Assembly: GCA_018714695.1 (NCBI GenBank)
Contig: DVNB01000072.1
Span: 1-33,205, forward strand
Direction: 5' to 3'
From: Candidatus Ornithomonoglobus merdipullorum
GTDB taxonomy: Bacteria > Bacillota > Clostridia > UBA1381
Length of the DNA stretch: 33,205 nt
Made by a program: the position numbers and the translations under genes. Below, piece after piece: positions 9,570 to 16,338 of this stretch; position 1 is the first letter of the stretch; the number at the start of each line of letters is the position of its first letter. The notes below the pieces were generated by a model, which saw only the letters and a program-made list of their open reading frames with translations, was not told the origin of the DNA and made no database searches.

Positions 9570-9647
9570 ACTATATATGATACATTTATTAACTCAACGG
9601 GAAACGAATGTTTGCCGGAATACATTTGTAAGGAGATGTCTCTAAGG

Positions 9648-11009
9648 ATGACAAAGGCTGATCTGTTCAGAGAAAGCATGAAGGGCAGGAACGTAACCGT
9701 CATAGGTATAGGAATATCGAACATGCCGCTTATAGAATACCTTTGCGGCGCGGGCGCGAATGTCACGGCGTGCGATAAGCACGATAAAGAATGGCTCGGT
9801 GAGAATTACAGAAGATGCGTGGAGCTCGGCGTAAAACTGAAGCTGGGTGACGGTTATCTTGACGATCTTACCGACGATATAATATACAAGACGCCTGGGA
9901 TGCGTATCGATGTGCCGGAGCTGGCGGCTGCGGCTGGGCGCGGAGCACATATAACCTCGGAAATGGAGACTTTTTTCGAGCTTTGCCCGTCACACATAAT
10001 AGCCGTTACAGGCTCTGACGGAAAAACGACCACTACGACTCTCATAAATGAGATGATGAAGCACGCGGGATATAAGACATGGCTCGGCGGAAATATCGGC
10101 AGACCGCTGCTTTCCGAGGTGGGGAATATGACGGAGGACGATTATGCGGTATTGGAGCTTTCATCGTTTCAGCTGCATACGATGAAGTATTCGCCGGAAA
10201 TAGGCGTCATAACGAATCTCAGTCCTAACCATCTTGACTGGCACAAGGATTATAACGAATATATCGAGGCAAAAACGCACATATTCAAGTATATGACCCG
10301 TGAAAACAAGCTCGTGCTGAATGCTGATAACAGCGACTGCGCGGCGCTTCTTCCGCTCGCGCATGTGAACGTAAAGATGTTCTCGAGGAAGATGAACGCG
10401 TCGATATGCTTAGACGGCGGCATGATAGTATGCGAAGGTGAGCCGGTGCTTGACATAAAGGATATAAAGATACCAGGTATGCACAATGTCGAGAACTACA
10501 TGGCCGCTATAGGCGCGGTATGGGGGCTTGTCGGGAAGGACGACATAAATTATGTGGCAAAGAACTTCGGCGGTGTACCGCACCGCATAGAGTTGGTGCG
10601 TGAACTTGACGGAGTGAAGTATTATAACAGCTCTATCGATTCAAGCCCGAACAGGACCATAAACACGCTAAATGTGTTCCCGGATAAGGTCATCATGATC
10701 GCGGGCGGAAAGGATAAGGGCATCCCGTATGATGAGCTCGGCGAGCCGTTGGCGGAGCATGTAAAGACGCTTATCCTAATAGGAGCGACGAGCGGGAAGA
10801 TCGAGGACGCCTTAAAGGCTACGGGACGCGCGGGGGAAGTGGAGGTCATAAAGGCTTCAACGTACCCTGAGGCTGTAGAGGCAGCGCGGCGGAAGGCTGT
10901 GCCGGGAGATACGGTGCTTTTGTCACCGGCGTCAACGAGTTTTGATATGTTCAGGAATTTTGAGGAGCGCGGCGAGCTGTTCAAGAAGCTCGTAAACGAG
11001 CTTTCGTAA
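9648..11009 (+). CDS. murD: UDP-N-acetylmuramoyl-L-alanine--D-glutamate ligase (MurD)
   Basis: 453 residues from ATG 9648; AAGGAG at 9630-9635 supports this start over in-frame TTG 9612 and ATG 9636. It adds D-glutamate to UDP-MurNAc-L-Ala in peptidoglycan precursor synthesis in the cytoplasm. The N-terminal Rossmann-like domain has VIGIGISNMPL; the ATP loop TGSDGKTTTT is at 121-130 with K126; ELSSFQLHTM and SPNHLDWH are typical of MurD; the C-terminal domain has VPHRIE, SSIDSSPNRT and AGGKDKG. Usual Mur features are complete. It is not in a division-and-cell-wall gene cluster: AraC lies upstream and M42 peptidases downstream (56-bp gap). It could be the only murD of the genome or a second copy. 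Confidence 0.93.
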   Translation: MTKADLFRESMKGRNVTVIGIGISNMPLIEYLCGAGANVTACDKHDKEWLGENYRRCVELGVKLKLGDGYLDDLTDDIIYKTPGMRIDVPELAAAAGRGAHITSEMETFFELCPSHIIAVTGSDGKTTTTTLINEMMKHAGYKTWLGGNIGRPLLSEVGNMTEDDYAVLELSSFQLHTMKYSPEIGVITNLSPNHLDWHKDYNEYIEAKTHIFKYMTRENKLVLNADNSDCAALLPLAHVNVKMFSRKMNASICLDGGMIVCEGEPVLDIKDIKIPGMHNVENYMAAIGAVWGLVGKDDINYVAKNFGGVPHRIELVRELDGVKYYNSSIDSSPNRTINTLNVFPDKVIMIAGGKDKGIPYDELGEPLAEHVKTLILIGATSGKIEDALKATGRAGEVEVIKASTYPEAVEAARRKAVPGDTVLLSPASTSFDMFRNFEERGELFKKLVNELS

Positions 11010-11065: not shown

Positions 11066-12094
11066 ATGCGTAAACTTATAGAGGAGCTCAGCAGCCTGCG
11101 AGGGATCTCCGGCAGGGAGAGGGCAACGGCTCTGGCTGTGGCGGAGCTCCTGCGGAAATATTGTGACAGTGTGAGGATCGACCGGCTCGGCAGTGTCATA
11201 GCCAAAAGAAGCTGCGGCAGGGATGGGGCGCCGTCAGTGCTCATCGAGGCGCACATTGACGAGATAGGGTTGATGGTATCAGAGATAACAGATAAAGGCG
11301 CGCTTAAGTTTGTAAACGTTGGCGGCGTGGACGAGAGGATACTGCCGGCTCTGGAGGTGACGGTGCACGGCAGGTGCGACATTGACGGAGTGATAGGAGT
11401 TATGCCGCATGAGCGCACCGATACAGAAAAAAGCTACAAGCCCGAGGAAATGGTGATAGACACCGGGCTTGACGCGGAGCGTGTAAAGGAGCTTATAGCC
11501 GTGGGCGACGCGGTAACTTTGCCGCAGTCCGTCGGCAGGCTTGGCAAACACCGCATGAGTGCGAAAACGATGGATGACCGCGCAAGCGTTGCGGCGCTCA
11601 TATCGGTAATGAAGAGACTTAAGGACGAAAAGCTGCGCTGCGACGTATATGTTGCGGCTGCTGTGCAGGAGGAGGTGGGCTGCCGCGGAGGCAAGACATC
11701 CGCTTATGGGATAATGCCCGACCTTGCGATAGCGGTGGACGTTACGCACGGGATAACTCCGGATAACGAAAGGAATGCGTTTGAGCTCGGACACGGCACC
11801 GTTATAACGCTGGGACCGAATCTTCATCCGAGACTTACGGACAGGCTTTTAGAAACGGCGCGAGCGAAGGGGATAAAGCATTCGATAGATGTTGACGGCG
11901 GCTGTACCGGCACCGATGCATGGGAGATCCAGGTCGCCGGAGGCGGAGTGCCTACGGCGCTGCTTTCTATACCGCTTCGGTACATGCATACATCGGTCGA
12001 AACGCTCGATCTGCGGGACGTCAAGGCTACTGTCTCGCTCATGTCGGAGTTTATAAAAGGATTGGAGAGTGATCTTGAATGGATGTCTCTTTAA
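11066..12094 (+). CDS. M42-family metalloaminopeptidase, first of three
   Basis: 342 residues, cytoplasmic. M42 enzymes are two-metal aminopeptidases that build 12-subunit tetrahedral shells and trim peptides. All expected residues are present: H63 and D65 in AHIDEIG, bridging D170 in DDRAS, base E202 and ligand E203 in QEEVG, D225 in VDVTHG, H308 in RYMHTS. The insert between them (about 70-160) is the usual dimerisation/PDZ-like domain. GGGAGGA lies 6 nt before ATG 11066. The stop overlaps the next gene by 16 bp, so the set is translated together. Substrate preference (acidic, basic or neutral N-terminus) cannot be told from sequence. Confidence 0.93.
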   Translation: MRKLIEELSSLRGISGRERATALAVAELLRKYCDSVRIDRLGSVIAKRSCGRDGAPSVLIEAHIDEIGLMVSEITDKGALKFVNVGGVDERILPALEVTVHGRCDIDGVIGVMPHERTDTEKSYKPEEMVIDTGLDAERVKELIAVGDAVTLPQSVGRLGKHRMSAKTMDDRASVAALISVMKRLKDEKLRCDVYVAAAVQEEVGCRGGKTSAYGIMPDLAIAVDVTHGITPDNERNAFELGHGTVITLGPNLHPRLTDRLLETARAKGIKHSIDVDGGCTGTDAWEIQVAGGGVPTALLSIPLRYMHTSVETLDLRDVKATVSLMSEFIKGLESDLEWMSL

Positions 12095-13119
12095 AAAAGT
12101 TAAGCGAGCTTTTCGGAGTTTCGGGGCATGAGGATGAGGTCAGAAAGTATCTAAGATCAATAGCAGCGGACAGATGCGACAAGCTGATGACCGATGCAAT
12201 GGGAAACCTCATAGCGTTCCGGCGCGGCAGATCGGATAAAAGGCGTGTGCTTATCGGCTCCAATATGGATGAGCCAGGTTTTATCGTGAGCGGAATAACG
12301 GATGCGGGTTATCTTAAATTCAAGACGGTAGGCTCGCCGGATCCGAGGACCGCCGTATCAAAGAGAGTGGTCACAAACGGCAGCGTAAAGGGTGTTATAG
12401 GGATGAAGGCGATACATCTTCAGACCAAAAAGGAGAGAGAGGCGGCTGTTGAGGCTTCGTCTCTTTATATAGATATCGGCTGTTCAAAGCGGTCGTCTGC
12501 TGAAAAGCGTGTTTCGCTCGGAGACTATATAGCCTTTGACACCGGATTTAAAGAGCTTGGACGAATGATTAGAGGAAAGGCTCTGGGCAGGTTCGGAACC
12601 CTTTGCGTTCTGCGTGCGATGGAGACGGAGCCGGCATATGATACGTATTACGTCTTCTCGGCGCAGCGTGAGATACCGTGCCGCATCCCTGGACGAGGGA
12701 TGGCGTGTGCGGCGCATGAGCTCAGACCGGATGCGGCGTTTATAGTGAACGTGATCCCCGCATCGGGACTCGGAGACGAATGCGGCGAGGATGCGCAGCT
12801 CGGCTCGGGAGCGGTAATAGTGCACAGTGACAGATCGAGTATAGGCAATTCCTTACTTACCGCGGCGGTCCGCGGCGCTGCGGACGCAAAAAACATAAAG
12901 TATCAGGAGCGTGTCTGCGGGCTTTATTCGACCGAGGCCGGAGCGGTGCAGACGGCGGCAAAGGGATGCATTACGGCATGTGTGGGCATACCGTGCCGGT
13001 ATCTTGATACTCCGGTGAACATGATGAACAAAAACGACCTGAACGGCGCTGCGGAGCTTATCGCGGCGCTTTCGGGAGAAAGCGATGTGATAATAAATGA
13101 TGTCGAAAAAGAGTTATGA
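12079..13119 (+). CDS. Degenerate M42-family protein, predicted inactive, second of three
   Basis: 346 residues with M42 fold over its full length and no frameshift. The active site is largely gone. Compared with its neighbours, metal His is N62 (SNMDEPG), bridging Asp is G170 (KALGRFG), the catalytic base Glu is R197 (QREIP), metal Asp is N224 (IVNVI) and metal His is D310 (RYLDT). D64 and E198 remain. It should therefore not bind two metals or cleave peptides in the M42 manner. It overlaps M42-1 by 16 bp and M42-3 by 23 bp, and its reading frame is intact, which argues for use rather than decay. Likely role (inference): structural or regulatory subunit mixed with its neighbours in a hetero-oligomeric shell. 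GGAGAG at 12064-12069 serves the start. Confidence 0.88.
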   Translation: MDVSLKKLSELFGVSGHEDEVRKYLRSIAADRCDKLMTDAMGNLIAFRRGRSDKRRVLIGSNMDEPGFIVSGITDAGYLKFKTVGSPDPRTAVSKRVVTNGSVKGVIGMKAIHLQTKKEREAAVEASSLYIDIGCSKRSSAEKRVSLGDYIAFDTGFKELGRMIRGKALGRFGTLCVLRAMETEPAYDTYYVFSAQREIPCRIPGRGMACAAHELRPDAAFIVNVIPASGLGDECGEDAQLGSGAVIVHSDRSSIGNSLLTAAVRGAADAKNIKYQERVCGLYSTEAGAVQTAAKGCITACVGIPCRYLDTPVNMMNKNDLNGAAELIAALSGESDVIINDVEKEL

Positions 13120-14101
13120 GCTCTTAAAAAGGCTCACCGAGGCTGACGCGCCGTCGGGACGTGAGGGCGCGGCGGCAGAGATCGTGCGCGCCGAGGCGGA
13201 ACGGCTGGGATATGAGGTAACGTCCGATGCGCTGGGCAGCGTTATAGCGCACAAACCGGGCAGCGGAGCAAAGCTTATGTTTGACGCTCACCTTGACGAG
13301 ATAGGCGTTATAGCCTCATATGCCGACGACAACGGATTTATAAGATTCGGTGCCGTGGGCGGGCTGAATACGAGCGAGCTGCCGAAAAAGCGCGTGAGAT
13401 TTTTAAACGGTGTGACCGGCGTTATAGGATCCGAGGAGGAGTCATTCAAGGACAAGCCGAAGCTTTCGAAGCTTTATATAGATATAGGCGCAAAGGATAA
13501 GGCAGACGCCGCGGACAAGGTAAAGACGGGTGATATGGCGGTCTTTGACGGACCGTTCGATTCGGACGGATGCAGAGTTGTGTCAAAGGCTCTTGACGAC
13601 CGCGCGGGCTGCTTTATACTGCTCTGCGCAATGGAAAGGATAAAGTCGTCGGAGAATGATCTCTGGTTCGTGTTCAGCGCGCAGGAGGAGGTAGGGCTCC
13701 GCGGCGCAAAAACCGCGGCATTTTCGATAATGCCCGATTATGCCGTGGCGGTGGACGTGACCGATACGGGCGATACTCCGGGCTGTCCGCCAATGGCGGT
13801 GAAGCTGGGGGACGGCGCGGCGATAAAGATAATGGACCGTTCGGTCGTGTGCGATACGGAGGTCATAGAAAGACTGATAGGTACTGCGGAGAAGAACGGC
13901 ATAAAGTACCAGCGTGAGATAATGGCGGACGGCGGCACCGACACAGGCGCCATTGCGCTTACGGGAGCCGGAGTCAAGGCCGGGGCTGTATCGCTGCCTG
14001 TAAGATACGTGCACTCTCCGTCTGAGCTGGCGAGTGTGGTTGATATAGAAGCGTGCGCGGAGCTTATAGCGGCGGTATGCGCGGAAAAATGGGATCGATA
14101 A
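13097..14101 (+). CDS. M42-family metalloaminopeptidase, third of three
   Basis: 334 residues (ATG 13097; ATG 13100 is equally possible). The active site is complete: H65 and D67 in AHLDEIG, D167 in DDRAG, E197 and E198 in QEEVG, D220 in VDVTD, H306 in RYVHSP. It overlaps the degenerate M42 by 23 bp and ends the run of four plus-strand genes that starts with murD. It is shorter than M42-1 in the insert domain and diverges in the metal-site flanks, so the three are old paralogues rather than a recent duplication. It probably assembles into a dodecameric aminopeptidase, alone or with the other two. Confidence 0.92.
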   Translation: MMSKKSYELLKRLTEADAPSGREGAAAEIVRAEAERLGYEVTSDALGSVIAHKPGSGAKLMFDAHLDEIGVIASYADDNGFIRFGAVGGLNTSELPKKRVRFLNGVTGVIGSEEESFKDKPKLSKLYIDIGAKDKADAADKVKTGDMAVFDGPFDSDGCRVVSKALDDRAGCFILLCAMERIKSSENDLWFVFSAQEEVGLRGAKTAAFSIMPDYAVAVDVTDTGDTPGCPPMAVKLGDGAAIKIMDRSVVCDTEVIERLIGTAEKNGIKYQREIMADGGTDTGAIALTGAGVKAGAVSLPVRYVHSPSELASVVDIEACAELIAAVCAEKWDR

Positions 14102-14137: not shown

Positions 14138-14178
14138 GATCTGTGAACGGTCCTGTCTGTTGCGGAAAGGCGGTAAGT

Positions 14179-16338
14179 ATGAAACTTAAAAAACTTGCGG
14201 CGCTGGGAGCGGCGTTTATAATGCTTTTTGAGACGGTGCCCGCCGGCGCCGCCTACTATGCTCAGCGCGAGCTTGGAACCATACCCGAATCTGAGCTCGT
14301 TTATGAGGAATTCAGTCCCGAGAGGCTCAATGATGCGGTCATGAGAGTGGAAAGTCTTTTGGACAGCTCCGGGAACGGGATGGAGATCTCGGCTGCGGCG
14401 GACATATGCCTTGATGAGTATCTCAGGGCGCTGGAGGAATACCGTCTTGCGTCGCTCCAAAGCGACATAAACTATAGTGAGGAGAATGTGCAGACGGTAT
14501 CCGATGCTTATGCGGCATCGCTCGATGCGTTTGAACTGCTGTCGGGGATGATGGCGCGGCTCAGTGAGAGCGCGGAATATTCTTATATACTCTCGGATAT
14601 GCTCGGCATGGGCGATACCGGTGAATTTATCTCATCCATTCCGCCCGAGGAATATTACGAGCTCAGTGAGCGCGAAGAGGAGCTGGTTGCGGACTATGCC
14701 GAGGCTGCCGGTGACAGCGACGCGTGCGCAAAGATATTTGCGGAGCTCGTGGACGTCAGGATGCAGATAGCGCGAGTGTTCGGATATGAGAGCTATGCCG
14801 ATTATGCGCATAAGGAGCTCTACGGAAGGGACTATTCCAGAGAGCAGATAGAGACGTTTTCGAATGCTGTTGCAGAGAGCTTTTCCGGGATGTTTGAGGA
14901 CATATTCAACGCCACGATGATAGTTCGCGGCGGCGCGGAGGGCATGAGCGAGGCTGAGACGATAGAGCGTATAGGCGGCGTTATGGGCGGGATAAATGAT
15001 GAGCTTAAAAGCACGTTTGACTACATGGTATCGAACGGTCTTATAAACGCTTCATATTCAGATGCGAAGAACAGGGTAAGCGGAGCTTATACCGTGGTCC
15101 TGCCGAGACTCAAGGTGCCGTACATGTATATAAATCCGGCAAGACGGTATGAGGACGGTCCTGCCGACGCTGCAAGAAATATAATACACGAGTTCGGACA
15201 TTTCAGCTCACTTTTAAACGATCCGGCGCTCGATACAAAGAGCATAGAGCTGATAGGTTCATTTTCGATGGACACCTGCGAGGTGCATTCGCAGGGACTT
15301 GAGTCGCTCGCGGAAAGCTATTACGGCAGGCTTTTCGGTTCGGGCGCGTCTCTTGAAAGATATATGCGGCTCATGAAATGTGTCGGAGCCATGCTTGACG
15401 GGTGTATGTTCAACGAACTGCAGACCCGCGTATATGACGAGGGCATCACCTCGGTAGACGAGATCAATGCGATAATGGTAGAGCTTTTGAAGAAATATTA
15501 TGATCTTGAATATACCGAGAGCGCTGCTCAGGGGCTTTGGACGAGCATGACGCATAATTTTGAGGCGCCGATGTACTATCTGTCCTATGCGGTTTCGGGT
15601 GAGGCTGCTCTGCAGCTTTTGATCGAGTCGGAAACCGATATGGAGGGTGCGGTCGATAAGTATATGAAGATATCGGCTCTCGGAGGATACGTCCCGTTCC
15701 GCGAGGCGCTCTCGGAAGCCGGGTTTGACGATGTGTTCGATGCGCGGATCGTTGCCGATACGGCTGACGGGGTGCGTGAGGCGTACGGACTGGGACGCCC
15801 GGATGTCGAGAGCGGCAGTTGGTATGAGTCGTATGCGCTCTACACGTCGCACATAATGGACGGATCGGTAGACGGCGGCTTTGCGCCGGGCGAGAACATA
15901 ACTCGTTCCGATTTTTTGGAGCTCATAGCCAGAGGGTACGATTACTATACGGGAATAGATGACGGATCTGAGACAGGCCCCGGCAAGTCGGACGGCAGCG
16001 GCGACAGATATATCTCGTGGGCGCTCGGAGAGGGGATCTCAAACGGGTATGCCGAAGGCGATTTCGGCGGATCGGATGAGATAACGCGCGAGCAGCTCGT
16101 TGTGATGATGTATCGTCTCTATGAGTATGAGAACGGCGAACAGCAGGTTGAGGGTGAGGCGCTCGGCAGCTTTTCAGATGCCGACGACGTATCCGAGTGG
16201 GCAGTGGAGGCCATGGAATGGGCGATAGATAGCGAGATAATAAACGGCCGTGACGGCAATATGCTGGAGCCGCAGGGTACCGCTACAAGAGCGGAGGCGG
16301 CAAAGATAGAGGCGTGTTATATAGATCTTGTATATTGA
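14179..16338 (+). CDS. Secreted M3-type oligopeptidase with three SLH repeats
   Basis: 719 residues from ATG 14179 (GGAAAGGCGG just upstream); the in-frame start at 14143 would precede the signal peptide by 12 residues. Residues 1-26 are a signal peptide (KLKK, hydrophobic core, AGA). The peptidase spans about 30-540, with zinc motif H337-E-F-G-H341 in NIIHEFGHFS and third ligand E368 in CEVHSQ, matching the E-x-x-SQ pattern of thimet/PepF relatives. Three SLH repeats follow (about 552-600, 613-660, 668-719), including DGGFAPGENITRSDF and a final ATRAEAAKI. SLH repeats bind secondary cell-wall polymer, so the enzyme should sit on the cell surface. M3 enzymes are usually cytoplasmic, so export with wall anchoring is notable. 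It may make short peptides for uptake. Confidence 0.9.
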   Translation: MKLKKLAALGAAFIMLFETVPAGAAYYAQRELGTIPESELVYEEFSPERLNDAVMRVESLLDSSGNGMEISAAADICLDEYLRALEEYRLASLQSDINYSEENVQTVSDAYAASLDAFELLSGMMARLSESAEYSYILSDMLGMGDTGEFISSIPPEEYYELSEREEELVADYAEAAGDSDACAKIFAELVDVRMQIARVFGYESYADYAHKELYGRDYSREQIETFSNAVAESFSGMFEDIFNATMIVRGGAEGMSEAETIERIGGVMGGINDELKSTFDYMVSNGLINASYSDAKNRVSGAYTVVLPRLKVPYMYINPARRYEDGPADAARNIIHEFGHFSSLLNDPALDTKSIELIGSFSMDTCEVHSQGLESLAESYYGRLFGSGASLERYMRLMKCVGAMLDGCMFNELQTRVYDEGITSVDEINAIMVELLKKYYDLEYTESAAQGLWTSMTHNFEAPMYYLSYAVSGEAALQLLIESETDMEGAVDKYMKISALGGYVPFREALSEAGFDDVFDARIVADTADGVREAYGLGRPDVESGSWYESYALYTSHIMDGSVDGGFAPGENITRSDFLELIARGYDYYTGIDDGSETGPGKSDGSGDRYISWALGEGISNGYAEGDFGGSDEITREQLVVMMYRLYEYENGEQQVEGEALGSFSDADDVSEWAVEAMEWAIDSEIINGRDGNMLEPQGTATRAEAAKIEACYIDLVY

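Follow-up and report, generated by a model that had tools for sequence, protein, structure and literature searches.

The stretch of DNA analyzed here, which we call the window, spans 33,205 nucleotides and carries three consecutive genes for M42 peptidase family proteins, A, B and C, all on the plus strand (Table 1). The open reading frames overlap, A with B by 16 bp and B with C by 23 bp, and each of the three proteins presents a full-length match to the M42 profile (positions 1-292), with scores that are all above the PF05343 cut-off of 23.2 bits. The best Thermotoga match is a different protein for each of the three. A and C contain the catalytic Glu and all of the metal ligands, and thus the residue set of the active type as judged by sequence comparison. 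When B is held against the residues of an active M42 aminopeptidase (catalytic Glu, and His, Asp, Glu, Asp/Glu and His as ligands), only D64 and E198 are still present. The initial annotation had described three overlapping genes with overlaps of this size, an A and a C with every metal and catalytic residue, and a B with five substitutions; all of this was confirmed, including the residue numbers. The predicted fold of B is, nonetheless, a confident and complete M42 fold (single-chain model with pLDDT of 93.2 and pTM of 0.91).

Table 1. Features of the M42 triplet and its upstream neighbour, in window coordinates.
Feature	Position	Strand	Basis or remark
murD, conserved upstream neighbour of A	9612..11009	+	Pfam
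Gene A, M42 peptidase, catalytic residues intact	11066..12094	+	Slot of T. maritima 1vho; PF05343 272.6 bits
Shortened loop of A, residues 108-122	11387..11431	+	3 residues shorter than KPPHLQ-type loops
Gene B, catalytically degenerate M42 protein	12079..13119	+	Slot of T. maritima TM1049 (2fvg); PF05343 189.8 bits
N62 of B, replaces metal-ligand His	12262..12264	+	
H113 of B, loop histidine (KAIHLQ)	12415..12417	+	Kept in 157/157 B proteins
G170 of B, in DDR motif, motif one residue short (deletion)	12586..12588	+	
R197 of B, replaces catalytic Glu	12667..12669	+	
N224 of B, replaces metal-ligand Asp/Glu	12748..12750	+	
D310 of B, replaces metal-ligand His	13006..13008	+	
Gene C, M42 peptidase, catalytic residues intact, no loop His	13097..14101	+	Slot of T. 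maritima TM1050 (3isx/4p6y); PF05343 282.7 bits

Sequencing error or chance was excluded as the source of the degenerate B, as B is without the catalytic Glu (here termed dead B) in 16 of 16 genomes of the window's genus. The idea that dead B is confined to this one genus was also dropped, since seven more genera have it. At the threshold used, B was matched in 67 of the 70 genomes of the window's family, and the catalytic Glu is missing from B in 45 of 45 species belonging to eight genera (g1, g4, g6, g10, g20, g22, g24 and g25). B is intact in the remaining genera of the family that were inspected and in 16 outgroups from the order. A single branch of the B tree separates the 45 species with dead B from all others, and the same split is found in an independent tree of A and C that was built without B, with an SH-aLRT support of 100 in both cases (by the quick method). 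Dead B thus has an apparent single origin in this clade. The survey of the triplet and its substitutions that the initial annotation had proposed therefore revealed no local oddity, but a feature shared by a whole clade and, as described below, by parts of two other families.

The same annotation had named neutral drift and stop codons in B as signs against a retained role, and had suggested dN/dS of this gene as a check; neither sign was seen. The reading frame of B is complete in 43 of the 45 species and is cut by contig ends in the other two (G001 and G011). Apparent stops in G024, G044 and G051 were an artefact of matches extending beyond the end of the frame. As dS was saturated in a fit to four g1 species (4.0-6.3 per tree, with an omega of B of 0.091), close pairs from genus g20, with dS of 0.13-0.60, were used for estimating omega. 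In seven such pairs, dead B presents an omega of 0.11-0.22, and an omega of 1 was rejected (2dlnL of 27-97); the same comparison gave 0.02-0.14 for A and 0.05-0.23 for C. Should B be a functionless, decaying gene, faster change would be in line with this: the omega of B is above that of A in all seven pairs, and the tree lengths within the genus (6.11 for B, 4.07 for A and 3.81 for C) indicate that B evolves about 1.5 times faster than either neighbour. However, the low omega values, the preserved frames and a loop histidine that never varies (see below) speak against decay, which we regard as refuted in practice and to which we assign a negligible chance. Judged from its sequence, B is a conserved pseudoenzyme, i.e. 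a protein under purifying selection that lost its catalytic residues.

One may also ask whether B acquired a new catalytic activity, or a metal-free binding activity, of its own. Asn62 and Arg197 are common to 15 of the 16 species of genus g1, and are thus near-uniform there despite a mean identity of 58% among the B proteins of this genus; the shared Asn/Arg may represent a remodelled pocket, for example one where the side chain of Arg stands in for the metals. Nonetheless, the place of the catalytic Glu is taken by Arg, Lys, His, Ser, Gln, Leu, Tyr or Cys across the 45 species, and with eight residue types and no common new catalytic residue, a new activity of B appears quite improbable.

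The triplet itself is widespread. All 41 relatives of the order carry M42 genes. The loci inspected among them have the same A-B-C layout, with few interrupted by contig breaks and with a rearranged order in genus g9 (in L061, L148, L152 and L159, C comes first and is followed, after about 1.3 kb, by A-B). In the sample of the class, 39 of 59 genomes gave an M42 match at 1e-40, and 24 of these carry three neighbouring M42 genes by coordinates, in one case (G023) with a gap. The class loci retrieved for the analyses below were partly chosen for weak scores, such that proportions among them are not prevalences. Except for the rearranged G023, the A, B and C proteins form three separate groups. 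Part of the 'couplets' noted when the class was surveyed were in fact triplets whose third gene is dead. One genome, G021, carries two M42 triplets (L058 and L059), with the A, B and C of one being identical to those of G017, so that contamination or transfer is possible.

Loss of the active site is neither restricted to the window's clade nor to B. Family f16 contains both states of B, with dead copies in genera g37, g81, g83, g84 and g87 and live ones in g82, g85 and g86. In family f37, B is damaged or dead in two of the five loci inspected (G232 and G304). C is dead in 38 of the 132 loci scored, these being from families f11, f16, f18, f27, f37 and f45 and from one genome (G074) of the window's family. 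In the latter (L157, with C at 1679-2644), the dead C presents His to Asn and catalytic Glu to Lys changes beside a live B. In five f16 loci of genera g84 and g87 (L237, L252, L253, L256 and L257), A is the only live copy, with both B and C being dead. The catalytic residues of A, on the other hand, are complete in 147 of 147 loci where both A and B are full, and where A is cut off, its visible parts are intact.

A loop histidine, which is conserved in M42 enzymes and forms part of a PPH motif in TET2, follows a different course in A than in B. It is present in every B protein considered, whether live (89) or dead (68). A keeps it in 78 of the 80 loci whose B is live, but lacks it in 61 of the 67 whose B is dead. 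The window's A has a histidine, H115, one place off the PPH column, which was coded as lost although the shortened loop can be aligned only to within a place or two; counting it as kept, the A histidine is lost in 60 of the 67 loci. As the nearest relatives of the window's A have Arg or Ala at this place, H115 may be a chance return. Exceptions exist in both directions, with the histidine being lost beside a live B in G038 and G252 and kept beside a dead B in G009, G013, G053, G055, G061 and G068. The case of G252 suggests a possible order of events, in which the A histidine may be lost before B dies. When B is live and C is dead, A keeps its histidine in 22 of 23 loci; the loss is thus tied to B and not to C.

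The pattern was first noticed in the window's family and order and was then tested on f16, which represents a separate origin of dead B. There, the A histidine is lost in 16 of 16 loci with a dead B and kept in 13 of 13 with a live one. Altogether, the reciprocal pattern was observed for the window's clade and for two other families. When all columns of A were ranked by their drop from live-B to dead-B loci in both lineages, P and H of PPH came first and second (first and third in the window's lineage alone); D79, F83 and A215 are other A columns that change on the same stems. The corresponding control with C is weak, as it contains a single f16 protein on the dead-B side. On the A tree, the distribution of dead B needs five changes on the best tree, three of which are forced by supported branches. 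None of the independent pairs points in the opposite direction, and on average 0.6 of 3 show no difference (sign test p of 0.25-1); three to five independent origins do not suffice for significance in a sign test on the tree. The loop His motif is absent from all of the C proteins listed, as well as from TmPep1050, and since C otherwise looks active, the histidine is not indispensable in M42.

The three T. maritima proteins offer a comparison for each slot, as the loop His is likewise present, present and absent in the slots of A, B and C, respectively. We take 1vho to be TM1048, and the three T. maritima genes are presumably adjacent. The aligned stretch of 2fvg differs from B in having the catalytic motifs that B lost. 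More generally, B is unlike the TET aminopeptidases of M42, such as P. horikoshii TET2 and T. maritima TmPep1050, in being without the catalytic Glu and metal ligands, and the present locus encodes three paralogues together. For TET2, one report states that H123 of one subunit may adjoin the active site of the adjacent subunit and that its mutation weakens substrate binding, and also that this His lies more than 20 Å from the active site in the cryo-EM structure (PMC8993905). In M18, the sister family of M42, the loop His enters the active site of the partner subunit. In human DNPEP, an M18 enzyme, the ligand is touched by His170, which belongs to the loop of the opposing subunit, and replacement of this His by Phe abolishes activity; the authors describe the loop His as conserved in M42. 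DNPEP thus resembles what is proposed below in that the loop His of an opposing subunit completes the active site, but it forms homodimers in which all sites are alive. Assemblies of different M42 paralogues have also been described. P. horikoshii TET2 and TET3 form mixed shells as heterododecamers (PMC4220976), although these were assembled in vitro, starting with the homodimers of two enzymes that are both active, rather than from heterodimers with one dead subunit. B. subtilis YtoP-YsdC (PDB 9a5r) is a bacterial M42 heteromer supported by in-cell crosslinks, and is not reported to have a dead subunit (PMC10090944). Further papers cited here are PMC3511314 and PMC3472314.

Considering these comparisons and the reciprocal pattern, we find it probable that A pairs with B in a heterodimer whose loops are swapped, and that dead B is kept since its histidine completes the site of A. 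The loop His of each subunit would enter the active site of its partner, the A loop reaching the B site and the B loop the A site. Once the B site dies, the loop His of A would be useless and decay, while that of B would stay constrained because the live site of A still needs it, such that dead B would be retained as the structural and substrate-binding half of the active site of A. A hetero-oligomeric shell of the TET type would be built from such A-B heterodimers, and C would be a third subunit that works without a loop His and may form dimers of its own, in the same or in another shell. We infer the heterodimer, the contact in trans within M42, the shell and the loss of activity in B from the evolutionary data described above. 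A-B loci without a neighbouring C, found in f61 (four loci), f41 (three), f57 (one) and f16 genera g37, g81 and g83, are in keeping with A-B being the core.

A purely structural or gating role of B in a mixed shell, with no part in an active site, would also account for retention of B. Under such a reading, the loop of A would have changed for another reason, such as specificity. Mixed M42 shells do exist (PMC4220976), B is modelled as a complete M42 protein, and six species with a dead B retain the A His column. However, a structural role leaves unexplained why the loop His is found in 68 of 68 dead B proteins and why the A histidine was lost with the death of B, and not with that of C, in three families. 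We therefore consider this explanation unlikely. Returning to the swapped-loop heterodimer, the initial annotation's view of a pseudoenzyme kept between active paralogues, with a role in a hetero-oligomer, is supported by evolutionary evidence, namely the 45-species clade, the other families, the His pattern and the omega values. Its suggestion that the inactive subunit shapes or gates the shell, or binds peptides, is replaced here by B giving its loop His to the site of A. With somewhat less confidence, we also favor the broader view that M42 A-B pairs are obligate heterodimers in which each site would be completed by the loop His of the partner, that one site was repeatedly switched off while the dead subunit was kept as a co-catalytic half, and that C dies independently as well, leaving one live and two dead paralogues in f16 genera g84 and g87.

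Retention of a dead paralogue together with a live one is known from ClpP-ClpR and from the mitochondrial processing peptidase, although these have folds unrelated to that of M42. The M42 family itself is well known. In searches of open-access PMC papers, we found no report of an M42 pseudoenzyme, of dead-subunit retention or of the reciprocal His pattern, and the latter two appear to be new within that scope. If the proposed mechanism is true, nature ran a reciprocal mutant test that reveals which subunit serves which site in a giant peptidase shell, and M42 triplets, which are usually read as redundant paralogues, would be one hetero-oligomeric machine. It would also explain how and why dead peptidase subunits persist, and the disputed role of the TET loop His would become directly testable in bacteria.

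As for the surroundings of the triplet, murD is probably co-transcribed with it. Counting loci of the order where A is complete and the upstream sequence long enough, murD lies upstream of A in 71 of 78, with live or dead B alike. Among class loci with a complete A, it is found upstream in 16 of 39 and is absent beside A in 23. As murD also precedes live-B triplets, it does not explain the dead subunit. The initial annotation had raised a link of murD to wall-peptide turnover; murD is indeed a conserved and old neighbour, but a role in wall turnover was not supported, given its presence before live-B triplets and its absence from those class loci. Downstream of the triplet, at 14143-16338, the window encodes an M3-type peptidase that looks secreted and gave two S-layer homology matches (by Pfam, for the window copy only). 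Of the 15 other genomes of the genus, 12 likewise have a protein with a signal-like start and a similar length (711-739 aa) after the triplet.
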